Shown: positions 6 through 9,659 of the stretch, in pieces
Numbering within the stretch: the first letter of the stretch is position 1
How the letters are laid out: each line of letters opens with the position of its first letter
NCBI GenBank assembly: GCA_028289425.1
Contig: JANQPL010000011.1
Location: forward strand, 1-64,000
From: Alphaproteobacteria bacterium
Lineage (GTDB): Bacteria > Pseudomonadota > Alphaproteobacteria > JANQMY01
Length of the DNA stretch: 64,000 bases
Direction of reading: 5' to 3'
Position numbers and translations under genes: made by a program
The notes under the pieces: model-generated
What the model saw: only the letters and a program-made list of their open reading frames with translations
Databases searched by the model: none
Told to the model about the DNA's origin: nothing

Positions 6-81
6 TGGTGGAGCCGAGGGGAATCGAACCCCTGACCTCTACATTGCGAACGTAGCGCTCTCCCAACTGAGCTACGGCCCC
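6..81 (-). tRNA. tRNA-Ala (anticodon CGC)
   Basis: Read on the minus strand, the 76 bases fold as a full cloverleaf: a 7-bp acceptor stem (5' GGGGCCG with 3' CGGCTCC, one G-U pair), D arm GCTC/GAGC, anticodon stem CTACG/TGTAG, loop TTCGCAA, and T arm AGGGG/CCCCT around TTCGATT. The loop places CGC at positions 34-36 (window 46-48), which reads alanine codon GCG. The 3' CCA is encoded (window 6-8). A strong promoter lies just upstream. Any terminator would be beyond the window edge. Confidence 0.97.
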
Positions 82-3417: not shown

Positions 3418-4599
3418 CTACGGCGCGTCCTCCACCGCCCCGTCAGTGTCGGAGTCCAGAGGCTTCAGCAGACTTTCCAGATCGCGTTGAAAAACGTCCC
3501 CTTTCCAGGAGGGAACTTGATAGGCCCAACCCGATGTGGATGAGGCGATGCCCGCCGCTTCCGCTTCCACATCCTCTCTGGATTTGAGACCGGACGCGGC
3601 ATCAGGCGCTTCGCTCTCTTCCGCCTCGCCGCTCGCGCCGTCCGCCGGCGCGGGCAGCAACTCTCCGGAGACGGAAATCCAGTGATCCTCGCCGAGCTTG
3701 AGCGCCGCGATGGAGATTTTCAAGCCATCGAAGGTTTCATAGGAAAGTTGCGCGCCCTTCGAGAAATCGAAATCCGCGGCCGGCCGCACATCGTCGAATT
3801 TCACATTGGCCAATGCCGACCCAAGTTGATTGGGCGCCGTATCGCTTAAGACTTCGCGCCCGTCCGGAATGTTCGCCAGTGCGAAGTTTGCATCTTCAGT
3901 GGTCGCGCGAGACAGCACATAGGCCGGCCCGTCTGTCGGTTCTATCGTGACCTTCGCCACCCGTTCCCGAAAAAGGTCGACCACATCCCGCACGATCCAC
4001 TCATTGATATCGGTCTTCACCGCAAGATCACCACGGGCCACATAGGTTTGATCTTCGTTGACACGCCGCACATAGCGCGCGCCTTCGGAGCCAACCGCAC
4101 CGAAGCCCACATTGTCGCCAATGATCAAATCGGCAAACGCGTTGCCGGCTTTGTCTTTGACCTCGACCTTAATGCCGTTTCCATCCGCCGTCGGATCTTC
4201 CAGGCCCAGCAGGTCGTGCCAATCGGCACGCGCCGTTTTCGCTTCAACTGCTTCGGCCTCCAAAAGGCTGATCAGAATGCCACGAAGCTCATCGGTTTTA
4301 ACGGGAAAGCCATGCTTGTCGGGCGCTGTCCATTTGGAGCGGCTGTCATTCAGCACCAAACGCACCACGCCGTCATCTTTGCTGGTGATCGCTACTTCGG
4401 CGATGTTCTCTTCCACCTGTTTTTCCAGATCCGGGAAAAAGACGAACGGTTCGAACTGCGAGGTCACGGCTTCTCGGGACGACACGACGGTATAGATCGC
4501 GGCGATCACGGTGATGACAGTCAATCCGCCCAGGATCATCAGATGTCGGCTTTGGCGCGTTTTCAGGGCCGGCGATGTGTTCATATCCGTGGACGTCAT
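3418..4599 (-). CDS. DUF4340 domain protein, accessory to Gld-like ABC exporter
   Basis: A 393-residue protein with one N-terminal transmembrane helix (about 19-41) and a large, presumably periplasmic, beta-rich body with repeated WTAP/LLSLLEAE-like segments typical of DUF4340. The C-terminus is acidic and of low complexity (E/D/A rich, about 330-350 and the last 15 residues). DUF4340 genes are commonly the last gene after gldA-gldF-gldG, exactly as here (15-bp gap to gldG). The role is inferred from that context: an extracytoplasmic partner of the exporter. A GGAGACA ribosome-binding site precedes the ATG. Confidence 0.85.
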   Translation of the reverse strand: MTSTDMNTSPALKTRQSRHLMILGGLTVITVIAAIYTVVSSREAVTSQFEPFVFFPDLEKQVEENIAEVAITSKDDGVVRLVLNDSRSKWTAPDKHGFPVKTDELRGILISLLEAEAVEAKTARADWHDLLGLEDPTADGNGIKVEVKDKAGNAFADLIIGDNVGFGAVGSEGARYVRRVNEDQTYVARGDLAVKTDINEWIVRDVVDLFRERVAKVTIEPTDGPAYVLSRATTEDANFALANIPDGREVLSDTAPNQLGSALANVKFDDVRPAADFDFSKGAQLSYETFDGLKISIAALKLGEDHWISVSGELLPAPADGASGEAEESEAPDAASGLKSREDVEAEAAGIASSTSGWAYQVPSWKGDVFQRDLESLLKPLDSDTDGAVEDAP

Positions 4600-4614
4600 T
4601 GTCTCCGATCCCCG

Positions 4615-6564
4615 CTATCGCCGTGCTGAAGCTTCCGCACGCCGTCTGCTGCGCAGGTAAAACATTCCGACCGCGAACAGCCCCACCAAAAGCGGGAGAA
4701 CCCCGATATTGAGGATACGCAGCCTGTTGCCCAGCGCGTCGATATCCTTGCGCAGATTGCGTTGAACATCGCGCAAGGCCGCCCGGCTTTCCGCTAGCTC
4801 GCGCCGGAAGCGCTCGACCTCTGCCTGTTGTTCTTCCGAAAGCGCCGCAATGTTGTAGGCACCTTCCAAGCCGTCCGTCTCGGGTGCTTGCCGCTGTAAA
4901 TCCCGCAACCTGGCTTCAGTCGACGAAATTTTGGCATTGAGCTCTTCTTCTTCACGCAAATACTGCGCTTCCGCCGACCGCCGCAATTCGTCAACCACCT
5001 TAAACGGACGCTCGGACGCCGACCGGCTGCGCAAACTGATGAGCGCGTCCGACCCCATTAGATTGTCGATGGCGTTGACAACAAATGTGGAGTTGTCGGC
5101 GACGGGCTGCGCGATCGTCTGTCCAAGGAAGTTTTGTTTCTGAACCCAAAAATTGTCGTCGAATAGATCAGAATCGGCCACCACGATCACATTGATGGGA
5201 CTTACCGCTTCCGCAAGGTGCGCGGGCAACGGCACCTTGTCCTCTTCTTCGGCCGATTCATCATTTTCGCCTTCGGGCGTTTCTTCAGGAGGTGCCCCAT
5301 CCGGGTAAGCGGATTTGGCGGCACCGGAAATGCGCACACCCAAGGTGAGTCGCTCGCCGCCCGGTGCATAGCCGGTCAGCAAACGCTGCGGATTGGGCGC
5401 AATTCGCACCTGGGCCACGTCGATCAACATGGCATCCTGAGTGGTTTGGAAAAGCGGCGTCACATCGGTGGTTTTGTCATCGAGGATTTTTAAGTAACCC
5501 GCCGTGCCGACCCCGAGTTCGTTGATCTCGGCCGTCACCAAATCGTCGCGAGAAATATCCTCGCCAAGCAAGCTCATCCAAATCACGTAAAACACTTCCC
5601 GGCGCTGGGGCCCGGGCGCGATCACCCGCTGGGCGCGATTGGCATCAGCCACCACCTGATCGAGCGGCATGTCAACGCCCCACGCCGCCAAAAGCGGATC
5701 AAGGGTCGAGGCGGTCACGGCGCCCGGATTGGGCTGGCCGAATTGTCCCGGCTGCGCGTTCAATTCCGAATGGGGGTCCAGAAACACCAGGGCGCGTCCG
5801 CCACGCAGAACAAACTGGTCGATCGCGTAAAGCGATTTCGCCGGAAGTATGTCCGGGTGTGCCACCAGCAGCACCTGTACATCCTCGTCGATCCGGTCAA
5901 AGCCGTCTTCCAGCTCGACCAGATCGAAATTCTCTTCAAGCGATTGATAGATCAGCAATGGCTGCGCCAGGCCCTGCTGCATTGCCGCCAAGCCGCCGGG
6001 TCCGAATTGCAATGGCAGACTGGAAATGTAAGCTACCTTCGGTTTCACAAGGGTACTCAGCTTGTGAACCATCTCCGTTAATTCATATTCCAGAAACTGC
6101 TCCCGCTCGCGAAAAAAGAAGGGGATCGTTTCCTGGCCATTAGCCAGATTGGTGCCCGACAGGCCGAAAAACAGGGTTTCCCCGGACTGGGTGGGCACGG
6201 CCTGAATGCCGTAAGAGGTGGCGAGATCCTCGTCCGGCGAATAGGGCTCGGGATCGATAATCTCCAATTTCAGCCTGTCGCCGGCAACCGCCTTGAACTC
6301 CGCCAGCATATCGCGCACGCGTGTGCCATAGGCGCTGATAGTGGGATAGCCGGTCGCAAGGCGTTCGGAATAGAAGTAGCGCAGGGTGATGGGTTCTTCG
6401 ATCGCTTGGAGCGTTTCTCGGGTGCCGTCGCTAAGCGTGAACAGGCCGTTATCGGTCAGGTCGATCCGCGCATTGCGAAACGCCGTGTTGGAGAACACGT
6501 TTAGCGCCAAGAACAAGATCACGCTCAAAGCGATAATGAGAGTTCCGTAAAGGCGGCGCGTCAT
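4615..6564 (-). CDS. GldG-like ABC transporter auxiliary protein
   Basis: A 649-residue membrane-anchored protein. It has an N-terminal helix (about 9-27), a long extracytoplasmic GldG/IFT52-like domain with AHPDILP and FVLRGGRALVFLDPH motifs (about 235-265), a charged insertion around 415-440, a predicted coiled coil (about 535-610), and a C-terminal helix ending in an Arg-rich tail (RSRRRAEASARR). This matches the COG3225 auxiliary component of ABC-2 systems. In Bacteroidetes GldG works with GldA/GldF in gliding; in proteobacteria the substrate is unknown. It lies 13 bp after the permease gene in the same operon. Confidence 0.88.
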   Translation of the reverse strand: MTRRLYGTLIIALSVILFLALNVFSNTAFRNARIDLTDNGLFTLSDGTRETLQAIEEPITLRYFYSERLATGYPTISAYGTRVRDMLAEFKAVAGDRLKLEIIDPEPYSPDEDLATSYGIQAVPTQSGETLFFGLSGTNLANGQETIPFFFREREQFLEYELTEMVHKLSTLVKPKVAYISSLPLQFGPGGLAAMQQGLAQPLLIYQSLEENFDLVELEDGFDRIDEDVQVLLVAHPDILPAKSLYAIDQFVLRGGRALVFLDPHSELNAQPGQFGQPNPGAVTASTLDPLLAAWGVDMPLDQVVADANRAQRVIAPGPQRREVFYVIWMSLLGEDISRDDLVTAEINELGVGTAGYLKILDDKTTDVTPLFQTTQDAMLIDVAQVRIAPNPQRLLTGYAPGGERLTLGVRISGAAKSAYPDGAPPEETPEGENDESAEEEDKVPLPAHLAEAVSPINVIVVADSDLFDDNFWVQKQNFLGQTIAQPVADNSTFVVNAIDNLMGSDALISLRSRSASERPFKVVDELRRSAEAQYLREEEELNAKISSTEARLRDLQRQAPETDGLEGAYNIAALSEEQQAEVERFRRELAESRAALRDVQRNLRKDIDALGNRLRILNIGVLPLLVGLFAVGMFYLRSRRRAEASARR

Positions 6565-6577
6565 CTCAAATATCCCC

Positions 6578-7312
6578 TTAAGCCGCCTTACGCATATCGA
6601 TCAACACAGCGTTGGCCGTCAGCCACACCCAAATGAGCGAGCCGAAGTAAACCAGGTCGCGGAAATCGATGACACCGGATTTGATGGCTTCGAAACGGGT
6701 CAGGAAACTGAACGACGCGATGGTGGACACAAGGGCCTGCGGCGCCCAGCCTTTGAAGAAATCCAACACTTGAGGCAGGCCACTCACCGTGAACAAGAAG
6801 CAGATCACAACGGTGACCACAAATGCGATAACCTGATTTTGGGTCATGGCGGAAACGCAGGACCCAATGGCCAGGAACCCGCCTGCCATCAGAAAGCTGC
6901 CCACATAGCTGGCCAGGATAACGCCATTGTCAGGGTCACCCAGATAGTTGACGGTAAGCCAGATGGGAAAGGTGAGGGCCAGGGCGATGCCCGCGAAGAT
7001 CCAGGCTGCAAAAAACTTGCCCAAAACGGCGGCCCAAAGCGGTACGGGCAGTGTGAGCAGCAACTCAATGGTGCCGGACTTGCGCTCTTCCGCCCATAGG
7101 CGCATGGCAATCGCGGGGATCAGGAACAAGTAGAGCCAGGGGTGAAAATTAAAGAAGGCCGACAGATTGGCGCTGCGCGCTTCGTAGAAGCCACCCAGAT
7201 AGAAGGTGAAACTCATCGTCGCGAACAGGAAGATGACGATGAAGACATAGGCCAGGGGCGTTGCGAAATAGCCCGTAAGCTCACGCCGGAAGATGGCCAA
7301 CAACTCGCTCAT
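6578..7312 (-). CDS. ABC-2 type permease, GldF-like
   Basis: A 244-residue integral membrane protein with six hydrophobic segments. It carries the ABC-2 hallmark RREL-T-G-YFATPLAYVF at the N-terminus and the conserved MRLWAEERKSGTIELLLTLP cytoplasmic loop (about 67-86). It would form the channel of a Gld-like exporter with the preceding ATPase. Its start overlaps the ATPase stop by 4 bp, indicating translational coupling. The transported substrate is not evident. Confidence 0.92.
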   Translation of the reverse strand: MSELLAIFRRELTGYFATPLAYVFIVIFLFATMSFTFYLGGFYEARSANLSAFFNFHPWLYLFLIPAIAMRLWAEERKSGTIELLLTLPVPLWAAVLGKFFAAWIFAGIALALTFPIWLTVNYLGDPDNGVILASYVGSFLMAGGFLAIGSCVSAMTQNQVIAFVVTVVICFLFTVSGLPQVLDFFKGWAPQALVSTIASFSFLTRFEAIKSGVIDFRDLVYFGSLIWVWLTANAVLIDMRKAA

Positions 7313-8289
7313 GACGCGCGCCCCGCAATTTCTGCGTCCGATGTAGTCAAGGTACGGAAGACCTCATCAAGCCGGCCCTCTTCCGCATAGAGCGCTTTTA
7401 CATCCCAACCGGCGGCGGTTGCCTGCCCGCTCACTTTTTCGATCAGCACCGCGCCGTCTTTCGGGAAAATTGTGAAACGGTTTTCGCCATTGGCCCCCTT
7501 ATCAACCCGCACTTCGGAAACACCGTCGATTTTTTTGAGAGTATCTGTCGGCGCTTCACCCAAACTTTCCGGCAGGGCGATGGTCACCGCATTGTGGTGC
7601 TTTGATTTGGCCGTGAGCTCAGCGGGCGTTCCGTCCGCAACGATCTTGCCCTGATCGATAATCATGGCTCGGGTGCATACCGCTTCCACCTCTTCAAGAA
7701 TGTGGGTGGATATGACGATCGCCTTTTCCTTGGCCATGTCGGCAATCAAGCCGCGCACCGCATGCTTTTGATTGGGGTCGAGCCCGTCCGTGGGTTCATC
7801 CATAATCAAGACCGGCGGATCGTGCAGGATCGCTTGGGAAAGACCCACACGGCGTTTGAACCCTTTCGACAGCGTTTCGATCGGCTGATGCATCACATTG
7901 CGTAGATCGGTCCGGTCCGCCGCCTTATCGATCGCCTTCATCGCCTCGTCTCCCGATAGTCCGCGAACGGATGCAATAAAGGACAAGAACTCCATCGGCG
8001 TCATGTCTGGGTAAGCGGGCGCCCCTTCGGGCAGATAGCCGATGGCGCGGCGCGCTTCCAAGGGCGCTTCTTCCACATCGAACCCACATACGGAAATCGT
8101 TCCGCTGGTCGCCGACAGATACCCTGTGACCATTTTCATGGTGGTCGATTTGCCGGCACCGTTCGGGCCAAGAAAGCCGAGCACTTCGCCCTTCTCCACA
8201 TCAAACGAAATGTCGTCCACCGCCGTGAACGGTCCAAACCGTTTCACCAAGTTCTTGATCGAAATCATTTGGGAAGACGAAGACGTCAT
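7309..8289 (-). CDS. ABC transporter ATP-binding protein, GldA-like
   Basis: A 326-residue cytoplasmic ATPase. It shows Walker A GPNGAGKST, a Q-loop region, the signature LSKGFKRRVGL, Walker B VLIMDEPTDGLD and the H-loop ISTHILEE. A C-terminal regulatory extension of about 100 residues follows, as in GldA/CcmA-type ABC-2 exporters. Possible starts are GTG 8301, ATG 8289 and ATG 8268; none has a clear ribosome-binding site. I use 8289. It is the first gene of the operon gldA-gldF-gldG-DUF4340, downstream of a possible promoter at 8339-8367. Confidence 0.92.
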   Translation of the reverse strand: MTSSSSQMISIKNLVKRFGPFTAVDDISFDVEKGEVLGFLGPNGAGKSTTMKMVTGYLSATSGTISVCGFDVEEAPLEARRAIGYLPEGAPAYPDMTPMEFLSFIASVRGLSGDEAMKAIDKAADRTDLRNVMHQPIETLSKGFKRRVGLSQAILHDPPVLIMDEPTDGLDPNQKHAVRGLIADMAKEKAIVISTHILEEVEAVCTRAMIIDQGKIVADGTPAELTAKSKHHNAVTIALPESLGEAPTDTLKKIDGVSEVRVDKGANGENRFTIFPKDGAVLIEKVSGQATAAGWDVKALYAEEGRLDEVFRTLTTSDAEIAGRAS

Positions 8290-8338
8290 GTGATGGGACA
8301 CGTCCGCGAATCAATACAACCACGGTTCAAACCGGGGC

Positions 8339-8367
8339 TAGATAGACAATCCGCCGAAAACGTTCAA
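8339..8367 (-). promoter_or_regulatory. Possible promoter of the Gld-like operon
   Basis: Minus-strand TTGAAC (8362-8367) is followed after 17 bases by TATCTA (8339-8344), about 40 bp before the gldA start. Matches to consensus are partial. It sits immediately after the terminator of the candidate small RNA, as expected if the operon needs its own promoter. Confidence 0.35.
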
Positions 8368-8377
8368 GGGGTGGGCT

Positions 8378-8422
8378 AAAAAATGGACCGGGCGGCACCC
8401 ACTTGAATGTGGAGCCGCCCGG
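8378..8422 (-). terminator. Rho-independent terminator
   Basis: On the minus strand a 9-bp GC stem (8414-8422 with 8388-8396) is extended by a 4-bp inner stem (8409-8412 with 8399-8402) around TTGAAT. After four bases it is followed by six T residues (8378-8383). This is a classic intrinsic terminator for transcription coming from 8580 or further upstream. It ends the candidate small RNA, or else the acyltransferase transcript. Confidence 0.85.
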
Positions 8423-8580
8423 CAGGTGAGGAGACAGACATTGTTGACTTTGCCAACCGGGGCAATTTGCAGACCCGGGGGGGCTGGGGGGGCTTGTAAA
8501 CCGGACCTAATTGTGAGTTCCGATCGGCGCCGCCAACGATCTCAATATCGGGGTCCATTGGGGCGCGCGCTTGTCCAAAT
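8378..8580 (-). ncRNA. Candidate structured small RNA
   Basis: About 200 nt between a promoter-like TGTCGA...ATTATT (plus-strand view, 8608-8613 and 8587-8592, 15-bp spacing, AT-rich surroundings) and a strong terminator. On the minus strand nested stems can form: GGACC (8552-8556) with GGTCC (8503-8507), TTGAG with CTCaCAA (8541-8545 with 8511-8517), and ATCG with CGAT inside. A second hairpin (TTTACA near 8495-8500 with TGCAAA near 8466-8471, one mismatch) encloses two C7 runs. I do not recognise a known family. An overlapping 70-codon frame (8376-8588) has no ribosome-binding site and runs through the terminator stem, so an RNA is the likelier product. Confidence 0.5.
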
Positions 8581-8711
8581 CTAGGCATTATTGTGACAAA
8601 ATCGAAATGTCGAATCGTGGTTAAAAAGCTATTAAATTCAAGGGATTAATCGATCGACGAATGAAGCTCAACCGACCTCAATGCCAGTATTTTATTGGGG
8701 TCTTTTCCAAG

Positions 8712-9659
8712 TCAGTCGGCCCGCCACCGGCGGTGCAGCCAGAGCCATTGTTCGGGATGTTCACGAACCCATCCCTCCACCATGGCATTTACTTTCGCCA
8801 TATTGGCCTTGATGTCGTTTTCCCGGGACTCGGTTTTTTGCATTTCGACCGGCGGCGAGATCGACAGGCGAAAGCGACCGCCCGGCAGACGCTCAACCCG
8901 GGCCCCATAAACGGGGCAGTCGAAACGCCGAGCAAGCTTGGCCAGTGTGGGCGGCGTATGGGCCGGCCGGTTAAAGAAGGGCAACACGGGTCCGCGGGTG
9001 AAGTGCTGATCCACCAATATGCCAACCTGCCCCCCATCACTTAGCACCTTGGAGGCGGCCATGGCCGCACCCAGCCCGGACGGCAGCAGAGTTCCCATAT
9101 TTTCGCCTCGAATGCGTTGGATCAGGCGGTTGATGTAGGGATTGTTTGGCCGGCGAAAAATGACCGAGATCGGCAAGTCATATTGCGCGGCGCATACGGC
9201 CAGCAACTCCCAATTCGCCAAATGCGCGGTGAAGACGATGGCGGGGCTGCCGCTATCGCGCAGGGCAAGGAAATGTTCAATGCCGTGCACTTCAATTCGA
9301 TCGAACCGGTCGGGAAACTGCGGGTCGTAATCCCAAATGCGGTCGAGATGGGGGTATTCGGCGGCGGTGCGACCCAGATTGTCCCACACGCCGCGCAGAA
9401 TGGTCTCGACCTCATCGTCCGACTTTTCCGGAAAGGCCGCTTTAAGATTTGCCCTGCCACGTCGGCTTACTTTGATCAGCGGCCCAATCGTGCGCGCCAC
9501 CCAGCCACCAAAATCGGAACTGGCTTGCCAGGGAAAAAGACGCGCAATCGCAAAGATGGCGCCGGCAAGGGCAGCCACCAGCCATTGGCCCAGCCGAACG
9601 ATCCGTAGGTAAAATCCCGCCAATGCGATCCTCAACGACTCATTAAGCTTCTGACGCAA
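8712..9659 (-). CDS. Lysophospholipid/lipid A acyltransferase, LpxL (HtrB) family
   Basis: A 315-residue membrane-associated acyltransferase that would transfer an acyl chain from acyl-ACP to a lipid A precursor or lysolipid. The catalytic HX4E motif is HLANWE (about 150-155). Further family blocks are the N-terminal hydrophobic anchor (about 25-45), FRRPNNPYIN, GILVDQHF and the C-terminal PEQWLWLHRRWR. No ATG is available near the N-terminus; the frame opens at TTG 9659, which I keep with modest certainty. A single gene between the small-RNA region and a divergent SNase-like gene. Substrate choice among LpxL/LpxM-type reactions is open. Confidence 0.88.
   Translation of the reverse strand: MRQKLNESLRIALAGFYLRIVRLGQWLVAALAGAIFAIARLFPWQASSDFGGWVARTIGPLIKVSRRGRANLKAAFPEKSDDEVETILRGVWDNLGRTAAEYPHLDRIWDYDPQFPDRFDRIEVHGIEHFLALRDSGSPAIVFTAHLANWELLAVCAAQYDLPISVIFRRPNNPYINRLIQRIRGENMGTLLPSGLGAAMAASKVLSDGGQVGILVDQHFTRGPVLPFFNRPAHTPPTLAKLARRFDCPVYGARVERLPGGRFRLSISPPVEMQKTESRENDIKANMAKVNAMVEGWVREHPEQWLWLHRRWRAD

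Follow-up and report, generated by a model that had tools for sequence, protein, structure and literature searches.

Between a lipid A acyltransferase gene and a Gld-like exporter operon of Alphaproteobacteria bacterium (contig JANQPL010000011.1, of which positions 1 to 64,000 were analysed and are here called the window), the minus strand at positions 8378-8580 had been singled out in a preliminary description, made from the sequence letters, as a candidate structured RNA. We propose that this stretch is the gene of an autonomous, trans-acting small RNA (sRNA) of ~158 nt, which would have its own promoter and intrinsic terminator and would pair with mRNA through a loop; judging from the sequence, we put the probability of this reading at roughly 0.7. 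The homology, the structure, the promoter and the boundaries of the conserved unit are shown by comparison of genomes, in which promoter, spoon-shaped RNA and terminator are conserved together. By the same comparison the window RNA is homologous to the Rfam families BjrC174 and CC3664 and is a divergent branch of an sRNA superfamily of Alphaproteobacteria to which CC3664 of Caulobacter and BjrC174 of Bradyrhizobium also belong. The earlier impression of an unrecognised, novel family was right in that Rfam is blind to the window copy, but the RNA does not form an isolated new family.

Conservation and homologs of the window RNA

Two genomes of the order were compared closely, that of the window (G000) and its nearest relative (G001, locus L003). 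Positions 8377-8585 are 92% identical between them, whereas the flanking genes reach 78% and 76%. Neighbouring non-coding DNA shows 35-65% identity to G001, and the segment 8586-8660, which holds an upstream promoter box, shows 75%. Such identity relative to the flanks points to strong purifying selection on non-coding DNA.

The motif AGCCCCCCCAGCCCCCC was found in 9 of 385 alphaproteobacterial genomes. The ninth of these (G231) had the appearance of low-complexity coding sequence and was excluded, and the motif matches in G231, G199 and G071 (L044, L045, L052-L055) were set aside as chance low-complexity or coding matches by their appearance. What the eight retained loci have in common goes beyond the motif: there is a 5' element, whose distance is the same in most of them, and the C runs are enclosed by a long stem. 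An identical 17-mer C-rich loop is present in 8 homologous loci from three families and is near-identical in Caulobacter-type loci, and P1 (a long stem), P2 (a short helix) and the loop AGCCCCCCCAGCCCC occur in all homologs. A model built from two sequences (R1) gave chance matches in coding DNA (L038-L041). Model R2, built from the eight loci, matched 19 genomes, with 11 further loci beyond the 8 training sequences; its weakest match, L074, was dropped as weak. Model R3, built from 18 sequences, added six more loci, which brought the total to 23 genomes of 10 families; G355 has two copies. Direct searches added little: blastn over the class returned mostly 22-40-nt chance matches and one real locus (L035), distant blastn against a plasmid collection and the motif search of viral contigs gave no match, and an acyltransferase synteny probe yielded one close locus, the known relative. 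The R1 search of the other alphaproteobacterial loci from this probe detected no sRNA. Some genomes carry two copies of the sRNA, namely G355 (L062, L081), G310 (L101, L073) and G417 (L118), the last as tandem copies at 1560-1662 and 1310-1403, ~250 nt apart and each with a promoter block.

An Rfam search of 8250-8750 gave no match even at E 10, and the window copy lies under the gathering score for both RF01530 (CC3664) and RF02355 (BjrC174). The Rfam and covariance search that had been recommended was therefore negative for the window copy itself, but the models built in this work do link it to both families. The family member in G360 is BjrC174 (175.5 bits, cut-off 45), on the same strand as the R2/R3 match and overlapping it; R2, which did not have G360 in its training set, finds this locus at 40.7 bits and E 3.4e-5 per genome, the E-values of models R1-R3 being approximate. 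The second copy in G355 is CC3664 (61.3 bits, cut-off 60), and here too the R2/R3 match overlaps it on the same strand; several other members have sub-cut-off matches to one or both Rfam families at the same place. When RF01530 was searched in 36 genomes of the G355 family, 29 matched; of 14 named control genomes, Caulobacter vibrioides was the only one to do so (the family names Caulobacteraceae and Bradyrhizobiaceae are inferred from the Rfam matches). R3 in turn matches 25 of the 25 RF01530 loci fetched, at 44-77 bits and in the same register, and in the loci checked the Rfam start of CC3664 is the first base of P1.

CC3664 and the window RNA are alike in the architecture of P1, P2 and C-rich loop, in the promoter block, in a model start at the +1 base and in the terminator; they differ in the sequences of P1 and terminator, and the Rfam model does not see the window copy. 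BjrC174 has a C5AGC6 loop and, like the window RNA, a promoter without an RpoD or RpoN motif (PMC4842269), whereas its C run is shorter and its stem sequence is different; its Rfam entry reaches ~81 nt upstream of the +1 placed here. The Rfam outputs name no clan for RF01530 or RF02355, and no paper linking the two was found among the open papers searched. The features by which we define the superfamily were all present: covariation in P1 and P2, the loop AGCCCCC(CC)AGCCCC, and a promoter block at fixed spacing from P1.

Fold, covariation and boundaries of the RNA

The features assigned to the RNA are the following.

8379-8537, minus strand: predicted sRNA transcript, ~158 nt, with +1 at the G at 8537, placed by the spacing to the -10-like element, by the CC3664 model start at the same base in the homologs checked, and by the terminator
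8520-8537, minus strand: 5' strand of helix P1 (GUUGGC, internal loop GGC, GCCGAUCGG), from covariation and pairing probability
8501-8505, minus strand: 5' strand of helix P2 (UCCGG), which closes the C-rich loop, from family covariation (two-sided changes in 8/8 pairs)
8477-8494, minus strand: C-rich loop AGCCCCCCCAGCCCCCCC, the presumed mRNA-binding sequence, conserved among homologs; its last two C are also in P2
8474-8478, minus strand: 3' strand of P2 (CCGGG), from family covariation
8443-8460, minus strand: 3' strand of P1 (CCGGUUGGC, AAA, GUCAAC), from covariation and pairing probability
8378-8423, minus strand: intrinsic terminator, hairpin 8423-8387 followed by a U-run (GCCGGGCGGC...GCCGCCCGGT CCATTTTTT), from a terminator scan and conserved in the relative

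In the structure-blind MAFFT alignment of the 8 loci, 8 of 13 stem pairs showed two-sided changes and the stem was in register in all 8 sequences; 87.5% of the cells were paired, compared with 72% after shuffling and at most 39% when the alignment was slid. The 18-sequence alignment had two-sided changes in 23 of the 24 pairs of P1 and P2, with a covariation score of 0.66 vs 0.24 shuffled and at most 0.18 slid. A further set of 27 sequences, found through RF01530 or through the promoter (one of them, L101, by the latter) and none of them used to build R3, had two-sided changes in 21/24 pairs, and none of 500 shuffles reached any of five measures. The view of a structured sRNA that ends in a terminator is well supported.

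When the window copy was folded from 8537, the minimum-energy structure was the P1 rod plus the terminator, with pairing probabilities of 0.93 for the outer 6 pairs of P1 and 0.70-0.71 for the inner 9. The folding energy (z = -3.3) comes nearly all from the terminator, the core alone giving -0.8; the structure is thus supported by covariation and not by energy. Folding of the full interval 8378-8580, which had also been proposed, was better than shuffles, but weakly so (z ~-2), and a competing stem appeared with the longer 5' end. The two C7 runs that had been read in the loop are there, at 8492-8477 of the minus strand. The near-perfect intrinsic terminator was likewise confirmed as strong (8423-8378); in the nearest relative it shows two pair changes, both compatible, and a single deletion in the loop, and a simple terminator scan detects an intrinsic terminator in only part of the family members.

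The 70-codon frame at 8588-8376 stays open in the relative, as would a gene for a small protein. Its ATG, however, lies 51 nt upstream of the predicted transcript start, the differences between the two genomes are mostly amino-acid-changing and include two indels with the frame shifted between them, and no frame of at least 15 codons lies wholly inside the predicted transcript; base-pair covariation also speaks against a protein. A coding function is in our opinion barely credible, and the original statement that the stretch contains no credible gene holds.

A rod shape, a similar length and a promoter of its own would also suit a diverged, RNA-polymerase-binding 6S RNA. This possibility had been discounted earlier on the ground that the RNA ends do not pair, a reason that proved wrong: from 8537 the ends do pair, and P1 closes the whole body ahead of the terminator. 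The conclusion itself was correct. RF00013 scores over its cut-off elsewhere in the same genome (G000:C14:77321-77479, L114; 57.3 bits, cut-off 46.4) and in five relatives that carry the window-type RNA, the locus has no Rfam 6S match, and the apical loop is C-rich and not a promoter-like bubble. We give this alternative next to no weight, since the genome and five others with a family member each carry a separate 6S gene, which excludes it.

The conserved promoter block

Upstream of P1, an ungapped alignment of 22 divergent members, anchored at P1, revealed a conserved block with three parts.

8573-8595, minus strand: upstream conserved box, -58 to -36, consensus CACAAAATNGCC-N4-TTCRGCC, in the window CACAATAATGCCTAGATTTGGAC; gapless in the 22 members and again in 27 mostly new sequences
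8561-8564, minus strand: GCCC box, -27 to -24, of which the first three positions hardly vary in the family, from the 22-member and 27-sequence alignments
8544-8550, minus strand: -10-like element, -13 to -7, CGATATT in the window and CCATNTT or CGATANN in the family, from the 22-member alignment

The block, gapless over 60 nt upstream, scored 51.1 bits over the 70-nt alignment, compared with 21.6-26.6 bits at six control offsets, and it was seen again in the 27-sequence set. In the -10-like element the A at -11 is invariant among the 22 members and T is found at -7 in 82% of them. A conserved A at -11 and T at -7 are expected of bacterial -10 elements. Because both bases are where such an element should have them, we place the start at about 8537 and read 8538-8580 as promoter. 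The RNA had been drawn over the whole of 8378-8580; its first 43 nt, as drawn, are overlapped by the conserved promoter, and the separate 5' stem-loop that had been described is made of promoter DNA upstream of the predicted start. A first placement of the -10 element at CTAGAT (~8584-8579) was superseded by the 22-way alignment.

A promoter-like element had been noticed from the letters. A conserved promoter does exist, at 8595-8544, but its make-up is different: a sigma-70 scan revealed no consensus promoter at the locus, and the EcfG (sigma-T) promoter motif was found in 0/22 members. This agrees with the report that BjrC174, an abundant sRNA, starts at a site highly active as a promoter that has neither an RpoD nor an RpoN motif (PMC4842269). 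The -58 to -36 box is probably an activator site or an unusual -35 region. In the Caulobacter-type loci (L118-L142) this box contains inverted half-sites that interleave (GAAATGACC TT ATTTCGGTC), an arrangement that would suit a dimeric regulator. Upstream of the block, at window 8605-8625, TTTTTAACCA(C/T) (TTAACCA) and GATTC, similar to a CtrA half-site and to a CcrM site, are conserved in the two genomes of the order only and lie outside the family-wide block.

A search for a wider regulon of the promoter pattern gave 31 matches in 22 genomes, compared with 22 for the reversed control, and the excess consists of the sRNA promoters themselves. The pattern alone also recovered a copy in G310 (L101) that had escaped the model scan; it has P1, the C-rich loop and a terminator. 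We give even odds to the broader proposal that CC3664, BjrC174, the window RNA and probably PmaR of Agrobacterium are branches of one ancient RNA, with a near-invariant loop of tandem AGCCCCCC units, a dedicated non-standard promoter (-58 to -36, -27 to -24, -13 to -7) almost exclusive to the gene, which would point to an activator that controls the RNA across several orders.

The promoter also bears on whether the stretch is simply an untranslated element of a neighbour, that is, the leader of the ABC operon or the tail of the acyltransferase transcript. Both neighbours are on the same strand, as this would require.

8712-9659, minus strand: lipid A acyltransferase (PF03279), the neighbour upstream, given for context
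7309-8301, minus strand: ABC ATPase of the Gld-like operon, the neighbour downstream, given for context

The stretch nevertheless has its own promoter block and its own terminator ahead of the ABC gene, which make a leader or tail unlikely, and the homologous locus L035 has different flanking genes; we leave this explanation only a slim chance. The Gld-like exporter operon (window 3418-8301) has the order ABC ATPase, ABC-2 permease, ABC_transp_aux/DUF7088 protein and DUF4340 protein. A tRNA gene is at the very start of the window (9-81, minus strand, 67.9 bits).

Likely function of the C-rich loop

In the proposed mechanism, the RNA would be transcribed from its own conserved promoter, starting at ~8537 and ending at the intrinsic terminator. 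It would fold into a spoon, with the long P1 stem including the RNA's own 5' end, the short P2, and a large loop with the tandem units. The C-rich loop would then be held open to pair with G-rich segments in several mRNAs, altering their translation or stability; more tentatively, a dedicated activator might act on the -58 to -36 box. Base pairing of the loop with G-rich mRNA sites is the likely mechanism by analogy with characterised sRNAs. PmaR of Agrobacterium has a long stem and a C-rich loop, and a change of CCCA to UUUU in this loop abolishes regulation (PMC6234868). The tandem cytosines of GsrN are thought to select G-rich targets (PMC5869019), and the CCCC loop of CcnA protects GGGG in the ctrA and gcrA leaders (PMC8959179). 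By these analogies the earlier suggestion that the C runs may pair with G-rich leaders is well supported as a hypothesis.

The resemblances have their limits. PmaR shares the spoon shape, the long stem and a single-stranded C-rich loop, whose CCCA-G sequence is needed for target regulation, but it reportedly occurs only in Agrobacterium and a related Rhizobium, and we liken it to the window RNA by description only. In GsrN of Caulobacter a C-rich loop is exposed and pairs with G-rich mRNA, but the GsrN promoter is of the EcfG type, seen in none of the 22 members. CcnA, also of Caulobacter, pairs through its loop as above, but lies at the replication origin with CtrA boxes, and no tie to the promoter or fold of the window family was found.

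The same sRNA might instead use its C-rich loop or its long stem to bind a protein, as a sponge or scaffold, with no mRNA pairing. The near-invariance of the loop across families goes beyond what varied mRNA targets need, and the tandem AGCCCCCC units look like repeated protein sites. A C-run would, however, be near-invariant too if it recognised many G-rich sites, and the characterised C-rich-loop look-alikes that we found pair with G-rich mRNA (PMC6234868, PMC5869019, PMC8959179). Protein binding in place of mRNA pairing seems to us rather unlikely.

Several points weigh against a trans-acting sRNA that pairs through its loop. P2 of the window copy has a probability of 0.05 in the single-sequence fold, and the C-rich motif is predicted to be only 30% unpaired, since weak pairs form within the loop. 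This motif is more unpaired than the average of the RNA in 20 of 22 members, and the window copy is among the exceptions. Alignments A5 and A7 were fitted to the model, a procedure that biases them towards its structure (the first, 8-sequence alignment, A3, was structure-blind). The distribution is patchy, 362 of the 385 sampled alphaproteobacterial genomes having no match under stricter filters. Finally, CC3664 and BjrC174 have been catalogued for more than a decade, and we know of no function for either.

With a common structure, loop and promoter, CC3664 and BjrC174, from two model lineages, become one family. Targets, regulator and phenotype of this family could be studied in Caulobacter or Bradyrhizobium and then transferred to its other members. 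The fixed promoter block is an unusual case of an sRNA control region kept across distant families along with the RNA, and it offers a handle on the regulator.
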